Translations under genes and position numbers: made by a program | In this document: positions 1 through 11,251 of the stretch, one piece after another | Numbering within the stretch: the stretch's first letter is position 1 | How the letters are laid out: every line of letters starts with the position of its first letter | The notes under the pieces: model-generated | What the model saw: the letters and a program-made list of their open reading frames with translations, nothing else | Told to the model about the DNA's origin: nothing | The model's database searches: none | From: Candidatus Aegiribacteria sp. MLS_C | GTDB taxonomy: Bacteria > Fermentibacterota > Fermentibacteria > Fermentibacterales > JCC-6 | Length of the DNA: 64,000 nt | Assembly (NCBI GenBank): GCA_002030045.1 | Contig: LQBI01000032.1 | Span: forward strand, 62,001 to 126,000 | Direction of reading: 5' to 3'

Positions 1-783
1 AGCCATCAGACGCCCCAGCTGACCGTCCACCCAGGCAATCTCCCCGTCGTATAGACCTTCAAGACGGTTGCGACTGCCGGTATCGGCCACTGCGCCCTCC
101 TCCGTGAATTTCCAGAAGCCGATTTCCCTTTCCAGTCCTCCGTCCCCTTCCAGTCCTCCGTCCCTTTCCGAACCTCCGGTTCCGTAAAGGGTGTCGAAGG
201 GACGGGGAGGGTCATAGGGGTCGTGGGGATCGAAGAGGTGGACGACAAGGAGGAAGGGCCGGTCATCGGGCACCCGCTGCAGCCATCTGATAGCGCTGCT
301 CACCGTGCTGTCGGCCTTCCCGTTGCCGTCGTCCCTGCATTCGAAGAGGTCGAAGCCCCTATGAAAACCGAAATCTCCGCTCAGGAGGTAGACGTTGAAG
401 AAGCCCGCCGTGGCGTAGCCGTTGTCGTTCATCACCATGGCCAGCAGGGGCATCTCCGGGTCCATTCCGAAGACCCTTCCGGTGGGAACGTCCATTCCGG
501 CACCGTGGGAAACGGGGGTCTGACCGCTCATGATGCTGGCGGTGGCGGGAAGTGTCCAGGAGGACTGGGCGGTCACGTTCTCCATCATGACACCCGCTTC
601 CGCAAGGCTGTCCAGCACAGGCGAGGTATCCCTCCGGTAACCGTAGCAGGAGAGATGGTCGGCCCTGAGGGTGTCGATGATGACCAGCACTACGGAGGGC
701 CTTTCGACTCCCCTCGTGCAGGATGCCGTCGCAGTCAGGACGATGGCGGCGAGGACGAGCCCCGGCAGTCGCGGGTATCTCAT
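1..783 (-). CDS. Sulfatase-like / alkaline phosphatase superfamily lipoprotein (C-terminus beyond window edge)
   Basis: Manual minus-strand translation from ATG at 783: MRYPRLPGLVLAAIVLTATASCTRGVERPSVVLVIIDTLRADHLSCYGYRRDTSPVLDSLAEAGVMMENVTAQSSWTLPATASIMSG...LLVVHLFDPHDPYDPP...YDGEIAWVDGQLGRLM; lipobox-like Cys and sulfatase motifs. Open to window edge, so absent from the ORF track. Confidence 0.85.
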   Translation of the reverse strand, partial: MRYPRLPGLVLAAIVLTATASCTRGVERPSVVLVIIDTLRADHLSCYGYRRDTSPVLDSLAEAGVMMENVTAQSSWTLPATASIMSGQTPVSHGAGMDVPTGRVFGMDPEMPLLAMVMNDNGYATAGFFNVYLLSGDFGFHRGFDLFECRDDGNGKADSTVSSAIRWLQRVPDDRPFLLVVHLFDPHDPYDPPRPFDTLYGTGGSERDGGLEGDGGLEREIGFWKFTEEGAVADTGSRNRLEGLYDGEIAWVDGQLGRLMA

Positions 784-1100
784 GGCAGCTCCGTTCCGGT
801 GGTAAGCGGCGCGTATATCCAGGCGAACAGGGACCTCTCGGGAATGTAAACCCTGTACCAGTCCTCCAGTCCCCCGGTCACCCGCAGCGAGTCCCCCGTC
901 ACGGCACGGCCGAGGATCTCGTACTCCGTTCCCGGCCCCGCCCGGAGGTTGACCACGCCGCCGGTGACGGTGACCGTCTCCCAGGGGGTTTGCACCTGGG
1001 CCTCCGGGGTCGGCACTCCGGTATCCACCGCCGCGCCGCTGCCGCAGCCGGCCGGGATGGCCATCGAGAGGGGAGCCAGGATCCTGCAGATCCTCAGCAA
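780..1100 (-). CDS. SH3b-domain lipoprotein, probable TTG start
   Basis: C-terminal half of ORF 780..1466: VTVTGGVVNLRAGPGTEYEILGRAVTGDSLRVTGGLEDWYRVYIP is a bacterial SH3 pattern. LLRICRILAPLSMAIPAGC resembles a lipoprotein signal. The upstream part of the ORF is a shadow of the IspH-UbiA gene. Confidence 0.65.
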   Translation of the reverse strand: MLRICRILAPLSMAIPAGCGSGAAVDTGVPTPEAQVQTPWETVTVTGGVVNLRAGPGTEYEILGRAVTGDSLRVTGGLEDWYRVYIPERSLFAWIYAPLTTGTELP

Positions 1101-2818
1101 CTGCCGCCTCCGGCCAGCAGCATCAGTCCGGGCAGGATCCCTGCTGCGAAGAGGCTCCCGTCGGCCAGTGTCCTCTTGGCCAGCTCGGATGGGAAAGGCA
1201 CTCTTCCCAGAATGAAGAAACCCGCCGCCAGGGTCAGCAGACCGGGCATGAACAGCAGCGTGGCGGTACCCAGGCGGCCGGTGAGGGTCCCTGCGGCAAG
1301 CAGCAGCCCGGCGGCGGCGAAGCAGGTCCAGAAAAGGAACACGCTCCTTGCCCTTCCGGCATGGATGGGAATGGTGTCCATACCCATCAGGGCGTCCCCC
1401 TGGAGATCTACAAGGTCCGCCAGGAGGCACCGTCCGAGGAAGAGGAAGAAGAGCATTCCGGCCCACAGGAGCGTCCCGGTATGGAATCCCGATGCTGTGT
1501 AGCCGGGCAGGAAAGCGAGAAGGAAGGACCAGGCGCCTGCGAACATAAGGTCCCGGGATCCTGGAAGGGTTCGAAGGCCCCTGAACGGGTACACCCTTCG
1601 CATCAGGGGTACGGAGTAGAGCAGGAAGGCTGCCAGCATCAGTCCCAGGACCAGGGACCAGAGTGCTCCCAGCGTGAACGAAACAGCCAGGGACGAGGCG
1701 AATGCCCCTACTGAAAGCCAGGTGAGGAGCCTTGAATGGTCCCTGAGGAATTCCTGCCTTCCCAGGCCGGATGGATGGGAATAGCCGGACTCCAGTACCG
1801 AGGTCAGCAGGTGCGCGGCGAACAGGAAGAGCGATGCGCAGAGAGTCCTGAACACCCAGCGTTCCAGGGACATCACGCAGGCTCCCGCCGCCCCCAGGGC
1901 GAATGTGACGGGCAATACGTGGAAATTGCCGTAAACGGCGTTCTGAAGGAACCGTCTGACCCTTCCTATCCTGAGACGGCCGCCCTGTATCTCCAGGAGC
2001 CTCTCACGGACCTTGCGTATGCTCCAGCTGGGAGTGGAGGCGCCGGCTGTCAGGAGGACGTTCTCGTAACGGCGCATCTCGTTCCCGTCCAGATCGTCCT
2101 GTGTCTCCACGTGGAATGCCGGAAGACCCTGTTCCCGGGCTATCTCCGCCAGCCTCGCGGTGTTGGCGCTGTTGCGTCCCCCCACCACCACCACGCAGTC
2201 GGCCTTTACGCAGAGACGGCGCAGCTCCTCCTGCCTGAGACTGGTGGAATTGCAGATGGTGCAGGAGTATTCCAGGTCGGGGTACGCCTCCTCCATCCTC
2301 TTCCTGGTCCTCTCCCAGGTCTCGGTGTTCTGGGTGGTCTGCGACAGGAGGAAGGGTCTGTGCAGTTCCCCCAGCGAACCGACCTCCTCAGGGCCTGTTA
2401 TCACCCTTGCCCTGCCCCCTCCGTATGAGACGATGCATCTGACCTCCTGGTGATCGGGATCCCCAAGGACCACCACGTCGCAGCCTTCACCCGCCTTCTT
2501 CCATGCCAGTGCCAGGGCCCTTCCCACCCTTGGACAGGTGAGGTCCCTGATGGCGATGGGAAGCTCGCACAGTTCCCTCCGCCTCTCCAGCGTTGTCCCG
2601 TGGGTCCGGAGGAAGAGCGTTCCGCTTCCCATCGACTCGGGATGGTCGCAGAGCCTGACCCCCCTGTCCTCCAGTGCCTGGATGACCTGGGGATTGTGAA
2701 CCAGCTGGCCGTAGACTGCGTAGGGCTCGCCGCCCCGCCTGAGTTCCGCCAGGACCATGTCCACGGCCCTGCGGACGCCCCAGCAGAATCCCGCCGTCCT
2801 GGCGGTCATGACACCCAA
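1094..2818 (-). CDS. ispH: 4-hydroxy-3-methylbut-2-enyl diphosphate reductase (IspH/LytB) fused to C-terminal UbiA-like membrane domain
   Basis: N-term GFCWGVRRAV, LVHNPQVIQALEDRGV, RTHGTT, DLTCPRVG, LSQTTQNTETW, GASTPSWSIRKV are IspH signatures. C-term multi-TM with DLVDLQGDALMGMDTIPI, like the second UbiA DxxDxxxD motif. One uninterrupted 574-aa ORF. Confidence 0.85.
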   Translation of the reverse strand: MGVMTARTAGFCWGVRRAVDMVLAELRRGGEPYAVYGQLVHNPQVIQALEDRGVRLCDHPESMGSGTLFLRTHGTTLERRRELCELPIAIRDLTCPRVGRALALAWKKAGEGCDVVVLGDPDHQEVRCIVSYGGGRARVITGPEEVGSLGELHRPFLLSQTTQNTETWERTRKRMEEAYPDLEYSCTICNSTSLRQEELRRLCVKADCVVVVGGRNSANTARLAEIAREQGLPAFHVETQDDLDGNEMRRYENVLLTAGASTPSWSIRKVRERLLEIQGGRLRIGRVRRFLQNAVYGNFHVLPVTFALGAAGACVMSLERWVFRTLCASLFLFAAHLLTSVLESGYSHPSGLGRQEFLRDHSRLLTWLSVGAFASSLAVSFTLGALWSLVLGLMLAAFLLYSVPLMRRVYPFRGLRTLPGSRDLMFAGAWSFLLAFLPGYTASGFHTGTLLWAGMLFFLFLGRCLLADLVDLQGDALMGMDTIPIHAGRARSVFLFWTCFAAAGLLLAAGTLTGRLGTATLLFMPGLLTLAAGFFILGRVPFPSELAKRTLADGSLFAAGILPGLMLLAGGGSC

Positions 2819-2851: not shown

Positions 2852-2886
2852 ATAAAGAAAGAGGGCGGCGGAATGCCGCCGCCCTC
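2852..2886 (-). terminator. Rho-independent terminator downstream of the 2907-3539 gene
   Basis: Perfect 11-bp stem GAGGGCGGCGG-AATG-CCGCCGCCCTC (2861-2886), followed on the minus strand by TTTCTTTATT. Confidence 0.8.
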
Positions 2887-2906
2887 CCTCGAGGCTCGTC
2901 AGGCTG

Positions 2907-3539
2907 CTACCTGTAGAGACCCTTGATGGCGCCCCAGCTCTCGCTTTCGAGAGCAAGTGAGCCTTCAGCCCTGAAGAAGACGTCGATGTCTTCCGATACG
3001 GGGATGAAGGGATCCCAGAGGATCCAGTCCTGGCTGCCGAAGGTATGCACCTCACCGGTGAAGTTGCTGAACTCGTCGTAGAGAGCCGACGGGTAACCGG
3101 TGGAGGAGTACATGGTGGTGTTGGATACCATCCAGAAGTCCGCTTCGCAGGTGACCGGGGTGGAGTAGTTTATGATCACCGGAGCGAAGTGGAGTGCGGT
3201 GGCGTCGTCAGCGGCCAGCTGGGAAACGGGCATGGCAACGTCGCCGTTCCAGAGTTCGAGGCTTATCTGGTCGGTGTCCCAGGGCAGGCTCGAATGATGG
3301 TAGAACCACCACTCGGTCCAGTCGCATTCGAAGCTACTGGCACCGGGCATGAAGTCGGTGATGTCGAACCAGCAGCCCACGTAGGCCACGCCGCCGTAGA
3401 TCCAGTGGGGCGTACCGTCGTCGTACTGGAGCAGGTCGTCGGTGCCCGTGCCAGGAAGACCCTCGACCCTGACATTGTCAAGGGCGAAGGAAGCAGCAGC
3501 TGCAAGAGCAAGTACTATAAGTACCTTCTTCATGAGCAC
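2907..3539 (-). CDS. Secreted protein of unknown function
   Basis: Signal peptide MLMKKVLIVLALAAAASFA; 210 aa rich in aromatic residues and Asp; flanked by its own promoter and terminator. Confidence 0.75.
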   Translation of the reverse strand: MLMKKVLIVLALAAAASFALDNVRVEGLPGTGTDDLLQYDDGTPHWIYGGVAYVGCWFDITDFMPGASSFECDWTEWWFYHHSSLPWDTDQISLELWNGDVAMPVSQLAADDATALHFAPVIINYSTPVTCEADFWMVSNTTMYSSTGYPSALYDEFSNFTGEVHTFGSQDWILWDPFIPVSEDIDVFFRAEGSLALESESWGAIKGLYR

Positions 3540-3587
3540 TCCTTTCTTTCATGGTTGGTTACTACTGAGATTACTGGCATCACAGCA

Positions 3588-3616
3588 AGTATGCAAGGGG
3601 CGGAAATTGCTGTCAA
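3588..3616 (-). promoter_or_regulatory. Sigma70-like promoter for the 2907-3539 gene
   Basis: Minus strand TTGACA (3616-3611), 17-bp spacer, CATACT (3593-3588). Confidence 0.5.
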
Positions 3617-5616
3617 GGCCGTTTTCCATGTCCGTTAACGTTCATGTCGGACTCGATCCTTCTCATTGCGTCCCTGTATTTTGCGGCGCTCTCGAAATCC
3701 AGCTTCTCGGCGCACTCCAGCATTCTTCTTTCGAGGAACACCAGGGCCTCCCCGTCGGTTCCCGGCATGCCCTCCATGAGGTCTTCCTTCTCCTCACGCG
3801 GACGGAAGACGTCGGCTATGCTGGTGGCCCTCATTATCTCGTCCCTGGACTTCCTTATGCCCTCCGGAGTTATTCCGTGCTCCTCGTTGTACCGAAGCTG
3901 TATGGCCCTTCTTCTGGAGGTCTCCCCGATGGCGTACTCCATGGAATCGGTCACCCTGTCGGCGTACAGTATCACCCTGCCGGCCATGTTCCTTGCCGCC
4001 CTGCCGGCGGTCTGCACCAGGCTGGTCCTGGACCTGAGGAAACCCTCCTTGTCGGCGTCCAGTATGGCCACAAGGGAGACTTCCGGCAGGTCCAGGCCCT
4101 CCCGCAGCAGGTTGACCCCTACCAGGACGTCGAAATCGGCCAGTCTCAGTTCCCTGAGTATGGACACCCTCTCAAGGGCGTCCACCTCGCTGTGGACGTA
4201 CCTGGCGCTGATGCCGAGATCCTGGAGGTAGGAGGTGAGCTCCTCCGCCATCTTCTTGGTGAGGGTCGTTACCAGCACCCTGCCGGAACGGTCCACGGCC
4301 TCCCTTATTCCGGAGACCAGGTCGTCCACCTGGGTGGCCGCCGGACGGACCTCCATCTCCGGGTCCACCAGTCCTGTCGGCCTCACTATCTGCTGCACCA
4401 CTCCGGCGGACCTCTCCAGTTCGTACTCGGCGGGAGTCGCGGACATGCAGATCTTCCGGCCCGTTATTTCCACGAACTCCTCCAGGTAGAGGGGGCGGTT
4501 GTCCAGGGCGGACGGAAGCCGGAAGCCGTTCTCGACCAGGGTCTCCTTCCGCGACCTGTCACCCCTGTACATGGCGGCCAGCTGAGGAATGGTACGATGG
4601 GACTCGTCAATGAACACCAGCATGTCCCTTCCTCGGTAGTAGTCTATCAGGCAGGCGGGCCGTTCCCCCTCGGCCCTTCCCGAGAGATGGCGGCTGTAGT
4701 TCTCTATACCGCTGCAGTAGCCGGTCTCCGCCAGCAGCTCGATGTCGTACCTCGTCCTGGTCTCGAGTCTCTGGGCCTCCAGCAGCTTGCCCCTGGACCT
4801 GAACCAGGCCAGCCGCTCCTCCAGCTCCCTCTCTATCCTTCCGATGGCCAGGTTCAGTTCCGTCTCCGAGGTCACGAAGTGCCTGGCGGGATAGATGAAG
4901 ACCTCCTCCAGGTCCTCCAGCACCGCTCCGGTCAGGTGGTCTATACGACGAATGCAGTCCACGGTGCTTCCGAAGAAATCCACCCTGAGGGCCATGCTGC
5001 CGTAGGCCGGGACGACGTCCACCACGTCGCCCCTGACCCTGAACCTGCCCCTCGTGAGCGCGATGTCGTTCCTGGAGTAGCGCATCTCCACCAGGTCCAT
5101 CATGAAGCGACCCCTGTCCATGCCCATGCCCCTCTTCAGGTGCAGCATGCCCGAGGCGAAGGTGTCGGGATTCCCGAGGCCGTAGATGCAGCTCACGGAA
5201 GCCACCACTATCACGTCCCTGCGGGAGAGGAGCGACGCGCTGGCCCTGAGCCTGAGCCTGTCGAGTTCCTCGTTGAGGTCCGCGTCCTTCTCGATGAAGG
5301 TGTCGGTGGTGGGAATGTAGGCCTCCGGCTGGTAGTAGTCGTAGTAGCTCACGAAATATTCGACGGCGGCGTCGGGGAAGAAACCCCGCAGCTCGCTGTA
5401 GAGCTGCGCCGCCAGTGTCTTGTTGTGGCTCACCACAAGCACCGGACTGTCCATGGCCTCTATGACTCCGGCCATGGTGAAGGTCTTCCCGGAACCGGTG
5501 ACGCCCAGGAGGGTCTGCCACATGTCGCCGTCCCTGAGACCTCGGATGAGGGAATCGATTGCCTTCGGCTGGTCCCCCGCCGGTCCGAAGTCGCTCACCA
5601 GCCGGAAGAGCGGCAT
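3613..5616 (-). CDS. uvrB: Excinuclease ABC subunit B
   Basis: FRLVSDFGPAGDQPKAI, GVTGSGKTFTMA, VSHNKTLAAQLYSE, YFVSYYDYYQPEAYIP, C-terminal UVR motif. Confidence 0.97.
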   Translation of the reverse strand: MPLFRLVSDFGPAGDQPKAIDSLIRGLRDGDMWQTLLGVTGSGKTFTMAGVIEAMDSPVLVVSHNKTLAAQLYSELRGFFPDAAVEYFVSYYDYYQPEAYIPTTDTFIEKDADLNEELDRLRLRASASLLSRRDVIVVASVSCIYGLGNPDTFASGMLHLKRGMGMDRGRFMMDLVEMRYSRNDIALTRGRFRVRGDVVDVVPAYGSMALRVDFFGSTVDCIRRIDHLTGAVLEDLEEVFIYPARHFVTSETELNLAIGRIERELEERLAWFRSRGKLLEAQRLETRTRYDIELLAETGYCSGIENYSRHLSGRAEGERPACLIDYYRGRDMLVFIDESHRTIPQLAAMYRGDRSRKETLVENGFRLPSALDNRPLYLEEFVEITGRKICMSATPAEYELERSAGVVQQIVRPTGLVDPEMEVRPAATQVDDLVSGIREAVDRSGRVLVTTLTKKMAEELTSYLQDLGISARYVHSEVDALERVSILRELRLADFDVLVGVNLLREGLDLPEVSLVAILDADKEGFLRSRTSLVQTAGRAARNMAGRVILYADRVTDSMEYAIGETSRRRAIQLRYNEEHGITPEGIRKSRDEIMRATSIADVFRPREEKEDLMEGMPGTDGEALVFLERRMLECAEKLDFESAAKYRDAMRRIESDMNVNGHGKRP

Positions 5617-7278
5617 TCAGCCCTTGAGGCAGTCGAGCCTGAGTTCGAAGGCGGAGGCAGGCCTTGCGATCCCCCATGCCTCCAGCACCGCGGGATGGAC
5701 CTCGCCCACGGTTCCCGAGACGCACCCGTCCAGCATCACGGCGGCGGCCCTTCCGGGGACGAACCTCGGGTCCTCCACCGGTGTGAGCGACAGCTCGATG
5801 TCCCTGGAGCGGCACAGGTGGCCGAGGACGGAGTGCACGTCGCCGAAATCAGCATCGTTCCCGCAGACCAGGCAGGCGATCATGACCTCCGTGGCGCAGG
5901 AACCGTCGCCGGCGGCGGTGAGCACCTCGCCTGATTCGAAGGTCCTGTGCGGGTAGGAAGCGTGAGCGCTGGCACTCTCGACCTCAAGCAGCCCCGGGAG
6001 CAGCGAATTCCTCACCACGCCGTACTCCCTGGTCATGGGATTGGATATGGCGACGGGAGGTTCGGGAGTCCCGGTCATGTCCAGGACCTTCTCCATGCTG
6101 GTGAGCACCGGACGGAGGACCTCCTCGAACCCTGCCCCCACCATCAGCAGCCTTACGGAATCGGCGAGTTCCTCCACCGGCGCGCTCCTTCCCCTGGTGA
6201 AGGACTCCGGGAGGAGCGGCTGGAAAGAACCCAGACCCAGGGATATCGCGATGTCCTCTATCATGTCCACCTGGTGGATGCCGTCGCGGCGGTATGGAGG
6301 CAGGACGCCCAGAACTGTGGTCCCTTCGACCCGGACCGAAGCGTAGTCCATGGCCCTGAGGGCTTCCACGACTCTGGACGCGGACAGATCGGTCCCCAGG
6401 ACCGACCGTATCCTGCCGAGGGTCGTCTCCATGGAATCTGCGAAGATGACCGGACACCCGCCTGTCTCACCGGAATGGCCGTCCGGATAGACGACCCTCA
6501 GGGGAGCTATGGATGACCCCCTGTCCTCCAGGTTGCACGCCAGTATCGTCGCCGTGAGCTGTACCGTCTCCCAGTCGGTGCCCGTTACCTCGCAGAAGAG
6601 CCGGCTGTCCCCGGGCCTGACCCTTCCCGTTGTCTGGCTGTTCAGTATCGGGGGGAACGAAAGCACGGCACCCCGGGCATCCTGAAGGACCGGGTAGTAC
6701 TCCGCCCCCTCCAGGATATGGGCGTAGGTGCGGCCGGTCTCGGTTTCCCCCAGTATCTCGGAGAGGGTCATCTCCTTATCCTCGCCCAGCGGTACGAATG
6801 AGACGTCGGGCTCCGCGGCCCGGTAACGCACCGGGAACTCGATCTCGTCCAGCCTGTAGAAACCGGCGCCGGCGGTGGTCCTGTTCCTTCCGAAGGAGGC
6901 AGCCAGCTTCTCCTGGACGTCTATGAGAGCTTCCAGTCCCGACCGGTCCGGCGCCCATCCGCAGGCGGTGAATGCGGCGACGAAGGGCCGCACCTGCTCC
7001 AGGGCCCCGTCCACGATCATCTCCGCGGCCGGTTGCGGAAGCCGTGCAAGGTGTTCCTCGGGTCCGCTTGAGTAACACCTCAGGGCCCTGGCCACTCCCT
7101 CAACGCACCAGAGGTCCGGCCGGTTGGTGTCGTTCAGTTCCAGCTTGAGCCTGTCCCCCCCGGAGGAATCCACCTCCCCCTTGACCAGCGAGAGCATCGC
7201 CGCCAGTTCATCGTCACCGGGATCGTCCATCCCGGCCATCCTGAACAGGTCCTCCCTGCTCACCTCTATCTTGGGCAA
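5617..7278 (-). CDS. pheT: Phenylalanyl-tRNA synthetase beta subunit, short archaeal/eukaryotic-like form
   Basis: 553 aa; begins MPKIEVSREDLFRMAGM; NDTNRPDLWCVEGVARALR; ILNSQTTGRV. No N-terminal EMAP/tRNA-bd-like extension is apparent; adjacent to pheS. Confidence 0.9.
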   Translation of the reverse strand: MPKIEVSREDLFRMAGMDDPGDDELAAMLSLVKGEVDSSGGDRLKLELNDTNRPDLWCVEGVARALRCYSSGPEEHLARLPQPAAEMIVDGALEQVRPFVAAFTACGWAPDRSGLEALIDVQEKLAASFGRNRTTAGAGFYRLDEIEFPVRYRAAEPDVSFVPLGEDKEMTLSEILGETETGRTYAHILEGAEYYPVLQDARGAVLSFPPILNSQTTGRVRPGDSRLFCEVTGTDWETVQLTATILACNLEDRGSSIAPLRVVYPDGHSGETGGCPVIFADSMETTLGRIRSVLGTDLSASRVVEALRAMDYASVRVEGTTVLGVLPPYRRDGIHQVDMIEDIAISLGLGSFQPLLPESFTRGRSAPVEELADSVRLLMVGAGFEEVLRPVLTSMEKVLDMTGTPEPPVAISNPMTREYGVVRNSLLPGLLEVESASAHASYPHRTFESGEVLTAAGDGSCATEVMIACLVCGNDADFGDVHSVLGHLCRSRDIELSLTPVEDPRFVPGRAAAVMLDGCVSGTVGEVHPAVLEAWGIARPASAFELRLDCLKG

Positions 7279-8905: not shown

Positions 8906-11251
8906 TCATCTGACCCTCCAGAGCATGACGTCCTCCAGTAGGAACATTCCCTGCTCAGGCCTGGGAACGGCATCGTCGCCCTTCAGGACCGCACCGCACT
9001 GGGGGCAGACACAGGTATTCTCTTCGAGTTCGGCGTCGCATTCCGGGCATATCAGCCGGAGCCTGCCGTCGATGTAGTCCATCAGCTCCAGTGCGGAAAC
9101 ATAACCGTTACCGTCGCCGTCCGCATCTCCTCTGGAGCCCTGCAGCAGTATCGGGGTGAGGACCCTCTCGCTGACGCTGAGGTCTTCCCTGGCGGCGGTG
9201 AGCACCATGACCCCGCTTCCGGGAGCGAAGTCGTTTACGAACCCCCCGGAATGGCATGCGTCGAGGAACAGGAATACGGGCGCCGCTGCCAGAGAGTCGA
9301 CGATGCCGGCCACACGGTCGTCGGATATGTCATCATCGTAGAGGCAGAGGTACTCGTTTGCAGAATCCCCCTCCTCGGGTCCTCCCGAACCCGGGTGGGA
9401 CCTGTCCCCGTGACCGCTGAAGAAAACCACCACGCGATCCTCGGGTCCGGCCCGGTCCAGCAGGGACCTCATCCCCGCGATGAACTCCTCCGCTGTGCTC
9501 AGGGCATCCACCAGGAGTATCACATGATCCTCGGGGACTTCCTGATCACCGGTAAGGAACTCGTAGAACTCCACGGCGTCCATGCTGGCCCTGTTGAGAA
9601 CATCGGCCGCCGAAGGGTATCCGCTTATGCCTGCGCAGAGTGCCCAGGTCTCGGGAACCGGCGACGGCCCGGCAAGGGGGGACCTCCGAATGCGGCCTAT
9701 CTCCAGGTCGTAGTCGGTCTCCCCGTGCCTTTCGTAGAGATACACGGTTACGCCGTACACCGCATCCTCCTCCGCGAAAGCCACCACCGTCTCGTCACCG
9801 GCGGCGTCCACCGGGCTGAGCCATCCCTCCGCGACCAGGTCGAGTCCAGGACCCGTCACGTACAGGTCCAGGTCCACCTCCCGGTCCCCCCCGGAGAGAC
9901 CGATGTCAAGTATGGTCCCCGCATCCGCCGGGACCGAATGGAAGGCAACCGGCATTGAATCGTCTATTCGGCCGCTCCATGAGTCCTCCACCACCGGAGC
10001 GTCGGCGGCCGAGACGGTCAGGGACACGTCACCGCTGAGCCCGGCCTCTGAGAAGAAGGGGTCTATCCAGACCGTATCGCCGGTATTCACGTACAGGAGG
10101 AACTCCTCGTCACCCCTGGCCGAAGCGAATGTCAGGGCGGGTTCGCCCTCGCCCCTGAAGACGCGGACATCACCGTCCCGCGTCTTCTCGAATTCCGCGG
10201 AGATACCGAACAACCCCCCCGCGGGAGGTGAAAAACCGGCGGGGCCGCTGTCCCACCGGCCCAGTGAAACGGTGTTCCTCGCGGGTATTATCCTGCTGAT
10301 CGCGCCGGGCTTCCTGGTCTGAAGAGTGAAGGGCACTGATTCGGCATCGCCGGCGTCGAAGAGCAACACCTCGGCCACCGCCGAACGTTCAGCGGGGCGC
10401 AGCAGCAGCGTCTCCACGGTAGCGTATGACTGGCTGGCCATGATGTACTCCCCCGAATCGTCACGGAGAAGGAGGTCAAGGTCCGCACCCGGCGACCCTA
10501 TGATCAGGTCGAGGAAAAGAATGCCCCCGTGGGGAGGCACGATGAACCTGGACATCTCTCCCGGGACCGCCGCTCCGCTTTCGCCGGAGCCTTCCAGTAC
10601 CGGGAATCCGCCGGAAGGCATGACGGAAATGGAATACTCTCCCCTTCCCGACTTGTTGTACCTGCTCACCACCGCGGTCAGGGTCTCGCCCTGGAGCGCG
10701 GGCACGGTCACGGTCTCGAAGCCCTCCAGGGACATGCTGCTGCCCCAGAGCCGCATCCCGGTCCCGTAGACCTCCAGGTCGAGGTCCGTGTCACCTGAGC
10801 CCTCCAGCCTGAAGGTCCAGCTTCCCGTGGTCTCCGGACTGAAGGTGAAGGTCTCCGCCATGGCGTTCAACCCCAGTGCTCCGCTCACGGCCATTCCCTG
10901 CCCGATCCCGCGGTGGCTCAGGGTATCGACCGACAGCACGGTGGAGGTCACCCCGGAACCCTCGATAGTACTGACCCTTATGTAGAACCAGTAGTCGCTG
11001 AAGGCGGAGAGAACCATGCCCTCGCCCGGTGAGGACGCGCAGATCGGCTCCCCGTAATCGTCGAAGGCCGTCAGTTCCACCTCCCGGGAGGAGGAAACGG
11101 TCAGCAGGACGTAGTCGTCCTCGAGTATCCTCACCCATCCATCCCCTCCGGTCAGGTCAAGGGTGCACTCCTCTCCGGCGATCAGGGTCTCTATGGCCGC
11201 CGGGTCGGGCAGCGGTACGGACAGGACCAGCAACGGTATCAGGCATGGCAT
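8906..11251 (-). CDS. Secreted caspase-like (C14) peptidase with PPC-like repeats and C-terminal zinc ribbon
   Basis: His/Cys dyad VVVFFSGHGD and FLFLDACHSGGF; DADGDGNGYVSALELMDYI (EF-hand-like); CPECDAELEENTCVCPQCGAVL; N-terminal repeats of type DTDLDLEVYG / GADLDLLLRD / EVDLDLYVTG. Confidence 0.8.
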   Translation of the reverse strand: MPCLIPLLVLSVPLPDPAAIETLIAGEECTLDLTGGDGWVRILEDDYVLLTVSSSREVELTAFDDYGEPICASSPGEGMVLSAFSDYWFYIRVSTIEGSGVTSTVLSVDTLSHRGIGQGMAVSGALGLNAMAETFTFSPETTGSWTFRLEGSGDTDLDLEVYGTGMRLWGSSMSLEGFETVTVPALQGETLTAVVSRYNKSGRGEYSISVMPSGGFPVLEGSGESGAAVPGEMSRFIVPPHGGILFLDLIIGSPGADLDLLLRDDSGEYIMASQSYATVETLLLRPAERSAVAEVLLFDAGDAESVPFTLQTRKPGAISRIIPARNTVSLGRWDSGPAGFSPPAGGLFGISAEFEKTRDGDVRVFRGEGEPALTFASARGDEEFLLYVNTGDTVWIDPFFSEAGLSGDVSLTVSAADAPVVEDSWSGRIDDSMPVAFHSVPADAGTILDIGLSGGDREVDLDLYVTGPGLDLVAEGWLSPVDAAGDETVVAFAEEDAVYGVTVYLYERHGETDYDLEIGRIRRSPLAGPSPVPETWALCAGISGYPSAADVLNRASMDAVEFYEFLTGDQEVPEDHVILLVDALSTAEEFIAGMRSLLDRAGPEDRVVVFFSGHGDRSHPGSGGPEEGDSANEYLCLYDDDISDDRVAGIVDSLAAAPVFLFLDACHSGGFVNDFAPGSGVMVLTAAREDLSVSERVLTPILLQGSRGDADGDGNGYVSALELMDYIDGRLRLICPECDAELEENTCVCPQCGAVLKGDDAVPRPEQGMFLLEDVMLWRVR

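Follow-up and report, generated by a model that had tools for sequence, protein, structure and literature searches.

In the Fermentibacterota, IspH is made as the first half of a single protein that continues into a membrane domain of predicted UbiA fold, and this IspH-UbiA fusion is the standard, essentially the only, form of IspH across the phylum. IspH (HMBPP reductase) is the final enzyme of the bacterial MEP isoprenoid pathway. The explanation that we favour, and whose chances we regard as about even, is that the only HMBPP reductase of these bacteria would be tethered to the membrane through a UbiA-derived domain which may still bind prenyl diphosphate, and that this domain would not be an ordinary quinone-type prenyltransferase. 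What appears to be new here is the phylum-wide occurrence of the fusion in Fermentibacterota and, judging from the aligned residues, a degenerate first Asp-rich motif across the fusion family. The gene was found in a window of 64,000 nucleotides (the whole stretch of DNA analysed) from Candidatus Aegiribacteria sp. MLS_C, with the following features in window positions:

1094-2818, minus strand: gene for the 574-aa IspH-UbiA fusion, from a TTG start at 2818 to the stop at 1094-1096
1979-2818, minus strand: IspH (LytB) domain, residues 1-280 (PF02401, PDB 3dnf, Foldseek, residue tally)
1097-1969, minus strand: predicted UbiA-fold membrane domain, residues 284-574 (PF01040, AlphaFold2, Foldseek)
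1778-1804, minus strand: degenerate first Asp-rich motif TSVLESGYS, residues 339-347 (residue tally)
1553-1573, minus strand: R416 to R422, within LRTLPGSRD, candidate diphosphate-binding residues
1394-1417, minus strand: second Asp-rich motif DLVDLQGD with D468, D471, and D475 (residue tally)
2857-2890, minus strand: strong GC hairpin with a T-rich run after it (MFE -31.3 kcal/mol, z -5.5)

The uninterrupted frame of 574 amino acids that the original prediction placed at 1094-2818 is real and is coded on the minus strand; a plus-strand reading of the same interval was rejected, as it has stops in frame. A purine-rich stretch, GGGAGAGGACAG, lies immediately 5' of the TTG start, and the homologues start at the equivalent position with ATG or TTG. 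The hairpin is situated between ispH-ubiA and the gene for a secreted protein upstream, and is likely the terminator of the latter. At the other end, the ORF list has an ORF with a bacterial SH3 domain (780-1466, minus strand; E 9.6e-10) that overlaps ispH-ubiA at its 3' end; the true start of this ORF is probably further downstream.

Sixteen loci from separate MAGs, all bearing the title Fermentibacteria, Fermentibacteraceae, or Aegiribacteria, encode relatives at 63-77% identity, and the fused frame is uninterrupted in these loci, two of which are partial. A wider search of related genomes, as had been proposed with the prediction, recovered the fused gene in 41 of the 42 Fermentibacterota genomes examined; in three genomes of low completeness the gene is cut by a contig end. 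No PF02401 match other than the fusion occurs in 40 of these 41 genomes; the remaining one has a single additional partial match of 330 bases. In the one genome that lacks the fusion (80% complete) a LYTB search gave no match. Outside the phylum, 19 genomes from a sample of 385 of all kinds carry the fusion (574-637 aa, E < 1e-16), again as the only IspH (19/19). Because an intact fused frame recurs in this many independent MAGs, within and beyond the phylum, the joining of two genes by a frameshift or misassembly, the former of which had been named as the danger to a one-gene fusion, can safely be discarded.

The N-terminal half aligns to PF02401 (LYTB) over residues 3-274 and profile positions 1-266 of 267 (E 3.8e-73), scoring 246.5 bits where the curated Pfam cut-off is 24.5 bits, while with TIGR00216 it reaches 217 bits (cut-off 187.85). 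It matches the IspH entry 3dnf in the PDB (E 3.7e-45), and the full-length model superimposes in Foldseek on the IspH structures 3f7t and 3ke8 with an rmsd of 1.6-1.8 A. The catalytic signatures first read from the sequence are complete: the [4Fe-4S] cysteines Cys12, Cys95, and Cys189 as well as H41, H73, H123, E125, T161, S217, N219, and S261 are invariant in all 31 fusions compared. By its residues, the IspH half is most probably an HMBPP reductase that reduces HMBPP to IPP and DMAPP.

The UbiA fold of the C-terminal half is weak by sequence and clear by predicted structure. PF01040 (UbiA) matches residues 377-535 with E 8.1e-7 and 29-32 bits, under the curated cut-off of 34.2, which is exceeded by seven Fermentibacterota fusions and by 17 of the 19 other fusions; searched singly, each of the 13 proteins in the phylum alignment matched UbiA (best E 2.1e-10). 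Using that alignment, AlphaFold2 predicts an all-helical domain (pLDDT 88, pTM 0.87), as expected of a UbiA fold of roughly nine membrane helices; for this domain the best PDB matches in Foldseek are the archaeal UbiA homologues 4od4, 4tq3, and 4od5 (TM 0.53-0.62, probability 1.00; E 1.8e-4 for 4od4), and the model of the entire fusion (pLDDT 91, pTM 0.86) has IspH structures as its first matches, followed by UbiA structures. A sequence search of the PDB with the phylum-only alignment gave no matches; with a wider domain alignment (A3) it reached DGGGP synthase 6m31 (E 6.5e-7), and no other relative with a known structure emerged by sequence. The UbiA-like character suggested earlier for this half is thereby borne out by profile, structure prediction, and conservation, and the lack of UbiA similarity that would have spoken against it was not what the Pfam comparison found.

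Substrate-bound UbiA structures have both Asp-rich motifs (NDXXDXXXD and DXXXD) together with Mg and prenyl diphosphate (PMC7839719). The second is present in the fusion and conserved, as the original prediction had recognized in DLVDLQGD: D468, D471, and D475 are invariant in the 12 Fermentibacterota proteins tallied and D475 in all 31 fusions, D471-x3-D475 corresponding to the DxxxD of the UbiA superfamily. The canonical first motif was correctly reported as missing, since in T339-S-V-L-E343-S-G-Y-S347 the first Asp is replaced by E343 and the second by S347. Throughout the 12 Fermentibacterota proteins this motif reads (T/N/H)xxxE, with E343 in 12/12 and the second Asp absent in 12/12. The 19 other fusions have N in 18 cases, D (8), E (4), or another residue (7) at the position of the first Asp, and in most of them the second Asp is absent. 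The pattern [ND]xxx[DE]xxxD, which is crude and lies where the alignment is possibly 1-2 residues off in the most divergent members, was matched by 2/31 fusion domains versus 18/20 stand-alone UbiA homologues from fusion-bearing genomes, the latter chosen for the highest Pfam scores and hence biased towards canonical motifs; the two that do not match have a longer-spaced motif starting NDxFD. On this tally, the degenerate first motif is a property of the fusion family and not of one protein, and the literature searched yielded no statement to that effect for IspH-UbiA fusions. Glu in place of the first Asp also occurs in stand-alone homologues (NQASEEDLD, NQAAEEDLD), so the substitution by itself would not have to abolish catalysis. 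Besides motif 2, the residues R416/R422, R463, W430, and D553 of the fused domain are strongly conserved; the position of R422 is occupied by Lys in 19/19 non-Fermentibacterota fusions, and R416 and R422 are candidate diphosphate-binding residues.

The supposition that the fusion might be non-standard did not survive the literature, as IspH-UbiA proteins were published in 2015 from the sulfate-reducing Desulfobacterales, with a UbiA domain named PT_UbiA_5 (Rao et al., 2015; PMC4746011). These authors described 47 examples, proposed tethering and local supply, noted that the Desulfobacterales proteins have two DXXXD repeats, and tried to express the intact full-length protein, which failed (Rao et al., 2015; PMC4746011). 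Later papers in the literature searched contributed one passing mention. The Desulfobacterales proteins and those described here are alike in domain order (IspH then UbiA in one chain), in length class, and in having a UbiA domain without an assigned role, but the host here belongs to the Fermentibacterota, and only the second DXXXD is present next to a degenerate motif 1, whereas the published proteins have two by the authors' description. The fusion type is defined by its domain architecture, for which the two repeats are not required. The range of a little-studied fusion, known from sulfate reducers, thereby grows by an entire uncultured phylum, in which it is essentially the only IspH. The IspH-RPS1 fusions of Clostridia and others (PMC4746011) likewise consist of IspH with a long C-terminal extension, with the difference that the partner there is a set of S1 RNA-binding repeats and here a predicted membrane domain. 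Compared with UbiA prenyltransferases (ApUbiA 4od4/4od5, AfUbiA 4tq3, DGGGP synthase 6m31), the predicted fold and motif 2 are alike, while motif 1 (NDxxDxxxD) is missing, the domain is fused to IspH, and identity in the structural alignments is about 12-17%.

In the explanation that we favour, IspH would lie at the membrane's cytoplasmic side, tied covalently to a UbiA-derived integral membrane domain, and this domain would bind prenyl diphosphate through motif 2 and the conserved Arg/Lys. Such binding would place IspH beside membrane prenyl-lipid synthesis, or would respond to the prenyl diphosphate level. Both the membrane location and the ligand binding are deduced from fold and residues. 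Standard Mg-dependent ionisation of prenyl diphosphate by the fused domain is doubtful because the first metal site is degenerate, and a conserved UbiA domain that seems to have lost half its metal site is a testable oddity. Against this explanation, the conservation of motif 2, R416/R422, R463, W430, and D553 is what would be expected of a catalytic pocket. The original suggestion, that the fusion either tethers an isoprenoid step to the membrane or has put the domain to a new use, still appears the best reading, and the part of it that concerns UbiA catalysis stays putative.

A tentative alternative, though one with a substantial claim, is a bifunctional Rosetta-stone enzyme, in which an active UbiA domain with a modified first metal site would prenylate a putative membrane acceptor and IspH would supply IPP/DMAPP locally. 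This view, with transferase activity, is favoured by Rao et al. (2015; PMC4746011). The conserved motif 2 and basic residues are in line with it, as is the place of DGGGP synthase as the only known-structure relative in the search with alignment A3, but the first Asp-rich motif is unmatched in 29/31 fusions by the pattern used, and the gene neighbourhood offers no candidate acceptor pathway. Moreover, IspH produces C5 units and most UbiA enzymes take longer chains from a separate synthase, of which the host genome has one, so that direct channelling is not obvious.

It is unlikely that the fused domain has ceased to be a transferase and instead senses prenyl diphosphate to regulate IspH in cis, in which case an end product bound in the membrane domain would alter IspH activity. 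A sensor would be compatible with motif 1 being lost while motif 2 and the pocket residues are kept, and with the fusion being the only IspH. The comparison to be drawn is with HMG-CoA reductase and UBIAD1 (8djk; PMC4374513), where a UbiA-fold protein is bound to a controlling isoprenoid enzyme; this is a functional analogy only, as the two are separate proteins of the mevalonate pathway with a eukaryotic degradation mechanism. If true, such a sensor would be a bacterial analogue of UBIAD1 control over HMG-CoA reductase, and the MEP pathway would be under direct physical control at this protein should the domain sense or channel prenyl diphosphates. Quite improbable is a pure membrane anchor, that is, a UbiA domain without any ligand binding that only holds IspH at the membrane: the degenerate motif 1 would suit it, but D475, R422 (Lys elsewhere), R463, and D553 are conserved across 31 divergent fusions, and since a bare anchor is not expected to retain polar pocket residues, those conserved here seem to exceed its needs.

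The host genome encodes, among MEP and prenyl genes, IspG and the one polyprenyl synthase. It has a single other UbiA gene, which is decaprenyl-phosphate phosphoribosyltransferase-like (NCBIfam NF008977 above cut-off) and lies at about 1140-2400 of locus L018, on contig C35 of this genome, where an IspE-like ORF, read by eye, adjoins it. Enzymes of this type are known chiefly from arabinan synthesis in Actinobacteria. All 19 non-phylum fusion genomes contain 1-6 further, separate UbiA genes each. A role in quinone synthesis was therefore rejected: with separate UbiA genes in the other fusion genomes and a phosphoribosyltransferase-like one in the host, there is no need there for the fused domain to serve as the generic quinone enzyme. 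A role in archaeal ether lipids, prompted by weak matches to DGGGP synthase, is likewise unsupported because GGGP synthase (PF01884) is absent, with 0/42 phylum genomes above the cut-off and no match in the host genome.

Of the five Fermentibacterota loci inspected, most have uvrB and the gene for a small secreted protein upstream of the fusion, with purB directly or nearly directly downstream; these neighbours are not shared with the other groups viewed. They are housekeeping genes and uninformative as to the role of ispH-ubiA. The small predicted secreted protein directly upstream (2907-3539, minus strand) had no match in Pfam and NCBIfam searches, and similar-looking secreted proteins occupy the same position in three further loci (L082, L084, and L085, the last with two copies). 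An ORF of 830 aa at 3442-5934 on the plus strand is antisense to uvrB and probably spurious. Further along, a protein of 781 aa (8906-11251, minus strand), whose long N-terminal region had no match in a Pfam search, has a caspase-like domain (Peptidase_C14, residues 536-673; E 3.9e-9).
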